NCBI RefSeq assembly: GCF_000264315.1
Contig: NZ_AJXU01000044.1
Location: forward strand, 1 to 64,000
DNA: 64,000 bases
Source of the DNA: Rhodanobacter fulvus Jip2
GTDB taxonomy: Bacteria; Pseudomonadota; Gammaproteobacteria; Xanthomonadales; Rhodanobacteraceae
Direction of reading: 5' to 3'
The notes under the pieces were generated by a model. That model was not told where the DNA came from, ran no database searches, and was given only the letters and a program-made list of their open reading frames with translations. Position 1 is the stretch's first letter. Every line of letters begins with the position of its first letter. Made by a program: the position numbers and the translations under genes. Shown here in pieces: positions 48,990-53,068 of the stretch.

Positions 48990-51401
<2,412 letters not shown>

Positions 51402-51403
51402 AG

Positions 51404-51541
51404 AGCGGCCCCCTCACCCCAACCCTCTCCCCCGGCGGGGGAGATGTAGCACAAGCGGCTGGGTCGATAGCCTGCGCTTCGGGCTTGAAAGCTCCCTCTC
51501 CCCTGGCGCAGCCGGGGGAGAGGGCTGGGGTGAGGGGGCGC
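51404..51541. repeat. GC-rich palindromic repeat module, copy A
   Basis: Begins 3 bp after the ligA stop. Left arm cccctcaccccaaccctctc.., right arm gagagggctggggtgagggg. The arms are reverse complements and recur as copy B at 51870-52125. They bracket the DUF559 coding part. Confidence 0.85.
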
Positions 51542-51550
51542 GGTAAATAG

Positions 51551-53068
51551 ATGATGCGAGCCAGACAACTCCGCCGCGACCAGACCGACGCCGAGCGCAA
51601 GCTGTGGTCGCGCTTGCGCGCGGCGCAACTTGGCGTGAAGTTCCGGAGACAACATCCGGTGGCGGGCTATTACGCGGACTTCTGCTGCGTGGAGCAGCAG
51701 CTGATCGTGGAACTGGATGGCGGCCAGCATGCGGATCGGCAGACCTATGACGAGCAGCGTACGGCGGATCTGCGCAAGGCGGGTTTCCGTGTGGTGAGGT
51801 TCTGGAACGACGATGCGTTGATCCGCACCGATGACGTATTGGAGGCGATCGTGCGGGCGCTGGGCGAAGAGCGGCCCCCTCACCCCAGCCCTCTCCCCCG
51901 GCGCAGCCGGGGGAGAGGGGGCCAAGAGCCAGGCATCCCGCCTAAGCCAGGCATCCCGTCGAAGCCAGGCATACCGCCTAAGCCAAGTCTCCCGCCCAAG
52001 CCAAGCACCCCGCCGGAGTCAGATGCGCCAGCCCCGCGTGGCGCGCAGCCCGGTCGCGAGCCTCGGCCCCCAAGCTCCCTCTCCCCTGGCGCAGCCGGGG
52101 GAGAGGGTTGGGGTGAGGGGGCGCTTCTCCGATCCCTGCACCTGCGCGCAAGCCTCTACCAACTCATCCGCCGCTTCTTCAGCGACCGCCACGTGCTGGA
52201 AGTCGAAACCCCGATCCTCTCCGCCGCCGGCAACACCGAGCCGAATATCGAGAGTTTCACCACGGCCTTCAGCGGCCATGTCGACGCCGGCGCGCGCGAA
52301 CGCTGGCTGCGCACGTCGCCGGAATATCCGTTGAAGCGCCTGCTGGCGGCGGGCGTGGGCGATTGCTACGAACTCGGCCGGGTATTTCGCAATGGCGAGG
52401 CGGGCGGCCGCCACAATCCCGAGTTCACCATGCTGGAGTGGTACCGCTTGGGTTGGGATCATCATCGGTTGATGCGCGAAACCATGGACCTTGTGCAGGC
52501 GGCGCTGGCCATGGCCGGGCGGCGCGCCGAGCTCGTGGTGACGACTTACCGCCAACTTTTCCAGGACCAGTTGGACATCGATCCGGTGCACGCCACCATC
52601 GACGCCTTGCGCGCGCCGCTGGCGGAATACGGCATCGATCCCGCGGGCCTGGTGCGCGACGACTGGCTCGATCTGCTGATCACCCATCGCCTGCAGCCGG
52701 CGTTTCCGCGTGACCGCATCACCGTGATCCACGATTACCCGGCTACCCAATGTGCACTGGCCCGGATCCGTTCCGGCGAGCCGCCGCTGGCGGAACGTTT
52801 CGAGCTGTACCTGGGGCGCTACGAGCTGGCCAACGGGTATCACGAGTTGAACGATGCGTCCGAGCAGCGCGGGCGTTTCGAGCGCGACAACGTGCGCCGC
52901 CGCGAACGCGGCCTGCGCGAGGTTCCGCTGGACGAGAACCTCCTGGCAGTACTCGACGCGCTGCCCGATTGCGCCGGCGTGGCGCTGGGCGTCGAGCGCC
53001 TGCTGATGTGCCTGGCCGGTACCGATGCCATCGCCGACGTGTTGGCGTTTCCGTTCTCGGCAGCCTGA
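51551..53068 (+). CDS. epmA: Fusion of DUF559 nuclease-like domain to EF-P lysine lyase-type ligase EpmA
   Basis: A 505-residue open frame. Residues 1-108 are a DUF559/Vsr-like PD-(D/E)XK domain (DAERKLWSRLRAAQLG, YYADFCCVEQQLIVELDGGQ, a possible active site). Residues 109-190 translate repeat DNA with five PGIPPK-type units. Residues 192-505 are EpmA, the class II synthetase-like enzyme that adds beta-lysine to elongation factor P: FRNGEAGGRHNPEFTMLEWY and GVALGVERLLMCLAG are typical. No ATG, GTG or TTG lies in frame between the DUF559 domain and the EpmA core, only CTG at 52136 and 52142, so EpmA has lost its normal start. It might instead start on CTG. Confidence 0.75.
   Translation: MMRARQLRRDQTDAERKLWSRLRAAQLGVKFRRQHPVAGYYADFCCVEQQLIVELDGGQHADRQTYDEQRTADLRKAGFRVVRFWNDDALIRTDDVLEAIVRALGEERPPHPSPLPRRSRGRGGQEPGIPPKPGIPSKPGIPPKPSLPPKPSTPPESDAPAPRGAQPGREPRPPSSLSPGAAGGEGWGEGALLRSLHLRASLYQLIRRFFSDRHVLEVETPILSAAGNTEPNIESFTTAFSGHVDAGARERWLRTSPEYPLKRLLAAGVGDCYELGRVFRNGEAGGRHNPEFTMLEWYRLGWDHHRLMRETMDLVQAALAMAGRRAELVVTTYRQLFQDQLDIDPVHATIDALRAPLAEYGIDPAGLVRDDWLDLLITHRLQPAFPRDRITVIHDYPATQCALARIRSGEPPLAERFELYLGRYELANGYHELNDASEQRGRFERDNVRRRERGLREVPLDENLLAVLDALPDCAGVALGVERLLMCLAGTDAIADVLAFPFSAA
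51870..52125. repeat. GC-rich palindromic repeat module, copy B
   Basis: Same left (agcggccccctcacccca) and right (gctccctctcccctggcg..) parts as copy A but stretched by an 18-bp tandem repeat and other sequence. It ends where EpmA homology begins and is translated as the linker of the fusion. Confidence 0.85.
51929..52018 (+). repeat. 18-bp tandem repeat, five copies
   Basis: Units ccaggcatcccgcctaag and variants repeat every 18 bp, in frame, encoding PGIPPK, PGIPSK, PGIPPK, PSLPPK and PSTPPE. The pattern is a Pro/Lys-rich linker. Confidence 0.9.

Follow-up and report, generated by a model that had tools for sequence, protein, structure and literature searches.

EpmA (PoxA/GenX) is the EF-P lysine aminoacylase, and DUF559 proteins are Vsr-like endonucleases (PF04480; structure 3hrl). 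In Caulobacter, a methyltransferase mutant needs the DUF559 protein VsrA for its DNA-damage response, according to the available text of that report (PMC12907096). Here we describe a locus of Rhodanobacter fulvus Jip2 in which the two coding sequences share one reading frame. In the stretch of 64,000 nt that we analyzed (hereafter, the window), the EpmA catalytic domain is like that of described EpmA enzymes but is preceded by 188 extra N-terminal residues, consisting of a nuclease domain and a repeat-derived linker; the nuclease domain spans nearly the full DUF559 profile and differs from described DUF559 endonucleases by its in-frame fusion to EpmA. A DUF559-EpmA fusion is not named in the available text of the published literature that we searched on DUF559, EpmA and repeats, a scope outside which bioRxiv preprints fall. 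What began as a single odd gene turns out to be a recurrent, frame-locked fusion.

The fusion is a 505-codon open reading frame on the forward strand (51551-53068) that starts with ATG and contains no internal stop in the ORF list. Its predicted 505-aa product comprises a DUF559 nuclease domain, a linker and a complete EpmA in a single frame. The DUF559 moiety (residues 1-108; 51551-51874, forward strand) matches PF04480 over residues 3-104 (profile positions 6-108 of 109; 128.2 bits against a gathering score of 20.6) and the solved structure 3hrl_A (E 2.6e-27). D42, E53, D55 and H59 (numbered after the first row of the alignment), which we take to be the catalytic positions, are invariant in the DUF559 domains of all 16 fusions found in the family, and the moiety is probably an active nuclease. 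The EpmA moiety (residues 189-505; 52115-53068, forward strand), delimited by profile, solved chains and structure model, has no start codon of its own. It matches the Pfam family tRNA-synt_2 at residues 194-502 and the NCBIfam EpmA/GenX model TIGR00462 at residues 197-500, with a score (361.5 bits against an equivalog cut-off of 286.9) that predicts an EF-P lysine aminoacylase. The PDB EpmA chains 3g1z, 3a5y and 3a5z align from residue 186 onward, and the best named relative is that of Dyella sp. C9 (78%). In a structure model, EpmA is well predicted across most of residues 191-490, with a few lower blocks, one of 58, while the linker (residues 105-187) has a pLDDT below 50 and is predicted to be disordered. 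The DUF559 part is poorly modelled (31-64) because the input alignment held no other DUF559.

The preliminary description of this locus had noted a stretch devoid of in-frame ATG, GTG or TTG codons from residue 108 to the EpmA core. The gap is real but begins slightly earlier: the last such codon before EpmA is the GTG at codon 101, and the next is the GTG at V215. Since the first EpmA helix spans residues 189-212 in the model, a start at V215 would remove it, as had been predicted. The window genome also encodes EpmB (431 bits) and EF-P (221 bits), the latter with an intact KPGKGQ loop (FVKPGKGQAF) whose lysine we take to be the modified one. The other EpmA matches in this genome share only 27-33% identity and look LysS-like, so with EpmB and EF-P present no candidate EpmA enzyme other than the fused one was seen. 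The genome has another EF-P-like match (L319, contig C44:93160-93717) that scores under the family cut-off and may be an EfpL/YeiP-type paralogue.

The linker, residues 105-188, is a translated palindromic repeat element. One copy of the element (51400-51541) sits between ligA and DUF559, with 29-nt arms at 51408-51436 and 51511-51539 that are 97% complementary and enclose an inner hairpin. The other (51866-52131), which makes up most of the linker, sits between DUF559 and EpmA, with 58-nt arms at 51865-51922 and 52074-52131 that are 83% complementary. A 22-nt repeat core has four matches in the window, two per strand, against none in 100 shuffles; genome-wide, 25 matches with at most one mismatch were found, against none with a reversed control. 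The RNA from 51860 to 52135 is predicted to form a single, very long hairpin (-174.9 kcal/mol, z -7.95). Open reading frame, Pfam and NCBIfam matches and inverted arms thus agree with the initial proposal that DUF559 is joined to EpmA without a stop through translated repeats. Repeat analysis also detected an 18-nt tandem array within the linker (51927-52034, forward strand), with a period divisible by three, which encodes Lys-Pro-rich units and accounts for four of this linker's six Pro-Pro motifs. Pro-Pro motifs occur in the linkers of all 16 family fusions.

This architecture is not restricted to the window genome. DUF559 was searched in 233 genomes of the family and EpmA in 197. DUF559, linker and EpmA share one frame in at least 16 of the 233 genomes, belonging to 8 of 26 genera, and in G436, a genome of another family (f2), for a total of at least 17 fusions; as one of them is the window genome (G000), the fusion exists in at least 16 others. 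By genus, the family loci are those of G000 and G014; G146, G205 and G213; G098, G138 and G151; G096 and G123; G070; G155, G103 and G130; G199; and G209. The G436 fusion (L351, contig C20, DUF559 at 519802-520113) is a 618-codon frame whose linker has repeat-like ends and a long low-complexity stretch rich in Ser and Gln, and its DUF559 is only 55% identical to that of the window. Outside the family, 14 genomes were found to carry 15 DUF559 copies, of which this one alone is fused to EpmA; this count comes from a search of 398 genomes of the order at E 1e-33, which more distant DUF559 types would escape. In a looser test on 80 database loci, about 16 of which are from Lysobacterales/Xanthomonadales, no DUF559-like motif was found in the 1200 nt upstream of each match (the EpmA motif was found in only 19 of the 80). 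Eight stretches fit a pattern for viral relatives of DUF559, and none was confirmed. A long open frame before EpmA was rejected as a sign of fusion, because this G+C-rich DNA has open frames even antisense through ligA. The occurrence of the same architecture across family genomes rules out a recent single insertion in the window strain.

The ancestral state of the junction can be read from relatives. The gene upstream of the unit in the window (49002-51401, forward strand; 799 aa in the ORF list, stop TGA at 51399-51401) is, we assume, ligA; 15 of the 16 family fusions show a match to the ligA C-terminus ahead of the unit, and the other one (G213) is at a contig end. EpmA is matched at E 1e-60 in 43 of the 45 genomes of the genus. 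In 34 of these 43 rows the stop of the upstream gene, ligA by motif, lies 80-89 nt before the LEVETP motif of EpmA, abutting the epmA start or overlapping it (TGATG, ATGA or GTGA). Among the other nine, G062 and G067 have an intervening gene, four were unscored, and G000, G014 and G011 are longer. Many relatives, the sister genomes G001 and G016 among them, lack the unit and keep an undisturbed start of epmA. The comparison of start regions that the preliminary description had called for thus indicates that the contact between ligA stop and epmA start is ancestral, and that the same fusion recurs.

The window itself retains two candidate relics of this ancestral start (51391-51401, forward strand). 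The ATG at 51391-51393 is placed like the epmA start of G001, as judged by eye, and in its frame the left element gives ...PPHPNPLPRR...SLSPGAAGGEGWGEGA; the linker uses the same frame on the right element. From this frame, it is possible that a solo repeat element, read in the epmA frame, preceded the unit. The ATG at 51398-51400 overlaps the ligA stop (ATGA) and opens 50 codons, ending with a TAG directly before the DUF559 ATG. On the right flank, similarity to G001 resumes at GCTTCT, the sole informative point of the junction alignment. We infer that the unit was placed just behind the old epmA start, between the candidate relics and the fourth or fifth epmA codon. The ligA stop reads [A/G]TGA in 14 of 15 fused loci, which is only modest evidence for a relic start because about half would be expected by chance; in G155, a GTG overlapping the ligA stop is the start of the fusion frame. 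The proposal that a repeat-bounded DUF559 unit had captured the EpmA start draws support from the 34 of 43 genus rows and from the candidate relics. Its landing site in the epmA start region stands, refined to a position just behind the old start, and the event appears old and widespread instead of specific to the strain.

Two other genomes, G011 (L053) and G023 (L050), encode an EpmA with a longer N-terminus that begins at the ligA end. The similarity of this extension to the repeat is weak (8 to 61 of 500 shuffles score equally well), and it is possibly a decayed solo repeat element translated in frame.

The frame stays open through every one of the 16 family linkers, whose lengths range from 43 to 111 aa. 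No ATG, GTG or TTG occurs between DUF559 and the EpmA core in 6 of the 16 loci, nor in the 35 codons before LEVETP in 11. The other five have an ATG or TTG within those 35 codons and G436 has TTG/GTG codons there, so that free EpmA is possible in these six cases. Over 11 pairs, which share genomes and some of which have dS above 1, dN/dS is about 0.37-1.0 for the linker, against 0.07-0.24 for DUF559 and 0.07-0.19 for EpmA. The linker sequence drifts while its frame stays, and DUF559 and EpmA are under purifying selection in the compared pairs.

Several loci serve as natural controls. In G088, DUF559 and EpmA adjoin in different frames, and EpmA has its own ATG with stops upstream in its frame. 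In G096, three tandem, nearly identical DUF559 units 501 nt apart precede epmA (L186, contig C3:275811-277130), and only the unit beside epmA reads through; at this locus another gene lies between ligA and the first DUF559 copy. Elsewhere in the genus, the frame from DUF559 to the following gene is distributed 4/4/4 over 12 copies at the pilD locus and 3/2/1 over 6 copies at the nfeD locus. A murL-like locus, where the frame is constant in 15 of 16 copies without any fusion, is a counter-example to the frame argument. These locus names are our assumption from familiar sequence features, and the frame count leaves out L133 and the 22 of 56 DUF559 copies that have no downstream-gene motif and hence no frame. 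Within the genus, the frame ends no more than 58 codons past the domain in 52 of 56 DUF559 copies; the four exceptions are L129, which runs into a contig end, the two fusions, and a copy in G060 that runs on but out of the pilD frame.

We propose, with a probability of roughly 0.78, that a DUF559 unit displaced the epmA start, that EpmA is made as a fusion, and that selection holds the frame and thereby locks the nuclease gene in. An old DUF559 gene with two palindromic brackets would have come to the ligA/epmA stop/start junction, and the comparison with relatives indicates that the unit, just behind the epmA start codon, displaced the first few epmA codons. From then on, EpmA would be produced only as the C-terminal part of a DUF559-linker-EpmA protein, presumably made as a single chain, with the right-hand repeat as linker. 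Selection on EpmA would keep the drifting linker sequence free of stops and frameshifts, a step that is well supported, since EF-P lysylation needs EpmA and many of these genomes have no other usual start. As a side effect, deletion or frameshift of the nuclease gene would cost the cell EpmA, and the unit would probably persist through this capture of the start.

The preliminary description had left open whether EpmA is made as a fusion or from a CTG. The same open frame could indeed yield two products, DUF559 with a tail and a separate EpmA begun at a non-AUG codon, such as a CTG within the L-x-L conserved in the first helix, for which the repeat end GGGGTGAGGGGG would serve as ribosome-binding site. 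The purine-rich repeat end does lie just upstream, in-frame CTG or ATH codons occur at -18 or -20 in many loci (CTG itself at -20 or -18), and the five family loci with a usual start close to LEVETP would allow a separate EpmA. Two products, however, need no open in-frame linker, yet all 16 family loci keep one, while the frame is free at pilD and nfeD and in G088. We consider this alternative unlikely and favor the fusion, because one frame is kept by the 16 family loci and G436 alike, although their linkers differ, but not by G088, whose EpmA has an ATG of its own.

It is very unlikely that DUF559 was instead recruited as an accessory of EpmA, for example for nucleic-acid binding, with the fusion kept for a joint function. 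Purifying selection on both domains in the compared pairs and the presence of the fusion in 8 genera would fit such a role, but the unit is missing from many relatives, sister genomes among them, the linker is predicted to be disordered and drifts, and DUF559 genes persist at unrelated loci. An assembly or annotation artefact, in which a collapsed or chimeric repeat joined two genes, might be suspected from the self-complementary repeats and the 130 contigs of the window assembly, but is almost certainly wrong given the same architecture in 16 other genomes, including G146 (two contigs) and G098, whose single contig of 3.49 Mb refutes it as a general explanation.

The trees bear on how many times the capture occurred. 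In an EpmA tree of 81 rows (without L218 of G125, which gave no EpmA motif), fused genomes stand beside unfused ones, as in G000/G001, G014/G016, G070/G095 and G199/G161. When the 16 fusions of the family are compared, DUF559 and EpmA give matching trees for genera g22, g24 and g40 and also for G103 paired with G130. Only the DUF559 tree makes G000 and G014 sisters, and the EpmA tree of the fused loci puts G014 with G070. The nuclease domains of G155, G130 and G103 cluster, though weakly, with DUF559 copies from a different locus. Judging from these trees, the fused loci are not independent of each other, and the pattern fits an old insertion followed by many losses, exchange of the locus among relatives, or more than one insertion. 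The fusion in G436 raises the likelihood of multiple insertions, or of transfer. Wholly independent insertions in G000 and G014, which the EpmA tree would favor, are weakened by their sister DUF559 domains but may still have occurred, given the placement of G014 with G070 in the EpmA tree of the fused loci. The trees do not establish one origin for all fusions, against which count the grouping of the G155, G130 and G103 domains and the 55% identity of that of G436.

The DUF559 unit may belong to a broader class of elements. G+C-rich hairpins lie within 250 nt of the DUF559 copies of the genus upstream in 47 of 56 cases, downstream in 49 and on both sides in 42, against 11 of 222 control windows with such a hairpin. 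In 29 of 56 copies, one flank contains an exact inverted match of at least 14 nt to the other, against 0 of 55 controls; many of the 56 copies are orthologous and thus not independent, and one of 57 was omitted from the flank count. DUF559 groups follow loci, with copies also at unrelated loci, and the presence or absence of the unit is patchy and locus-specific. Across the genus (L083-L137), DUF559 genes lie between co-directional genes, which we take to be pilC/pilD, a stomatin-like gene/nfeD and others, and are mostly flanked by palindromic repeats that differ by locus. In one case (L095, G067 contig C58), an extra inverted-repeat insert directly precedes the DUF559 domain. The association of DUF559 with palindromes suggests a class of repeat-bracketed elements. 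Y1 transposases are known partners of such palindromes. Their profile (PF01797) has matches in 36 of the 45 genomes of the genus, with four in G000, so that either enzyme may move the repeats.

One may speculate further that DUF559 proteins are the mobility or homing enzymes of this class, kept at ligA/epmA by capture of the start, and that the synthesis of EpmA needs lysylated EF-P. Lysylated EF-P helps the translation of Pro-Pro sequences, and since the Pro-Pro motifs of the linker precede EpmA in the nascent chain, EpmA synthesis may depend on its own product. Both the homing and the feedback are speculative, and we regard this extension as possible, if rather doubtful.

The locus is a natural example of a nuclease gene, mobile in appearance, that became hard to lose after taking the start of a host gene, kept across genera and with matched unlocked cases. 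It raises the questions of whether DUF559 genes move with palindromic repeats, and whether such a capture lets nucleases escape deletion. It also implies that, in these bacteria, a nuclease fused to EpmA may go unseen or be trimmed off in annotation.

Two known kinds of system bear comparison with this unit. Like REPINs and their RAYTs, as far as the available text of the reports describes them, the window elements are inverted palindrome pairs, dispersed in the genome and here bracketing a nuclease-type gene, with the difference that the bracketed gene is DUF559 and not a Y1 transposase (PMC3116915, PMC3733652). The GTAG and CGTC tags given in the available text of one of them (PMC3733652) are absent from the ends of both window elements. 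Inside these elements, GTAG occurs once in the left and CGTC once in the right. Repeat brackets are not typical of homing endonucleases, and we know of no cleavage of the empty ligA/epmA site. To free-standing homing endonucleases, including the EDxHD family as described in the available text (PMC6083498), the DUF559 genes are nevertheless alike in their patchy presence at fixed sites and in forming locus-specific groups of nucleases.
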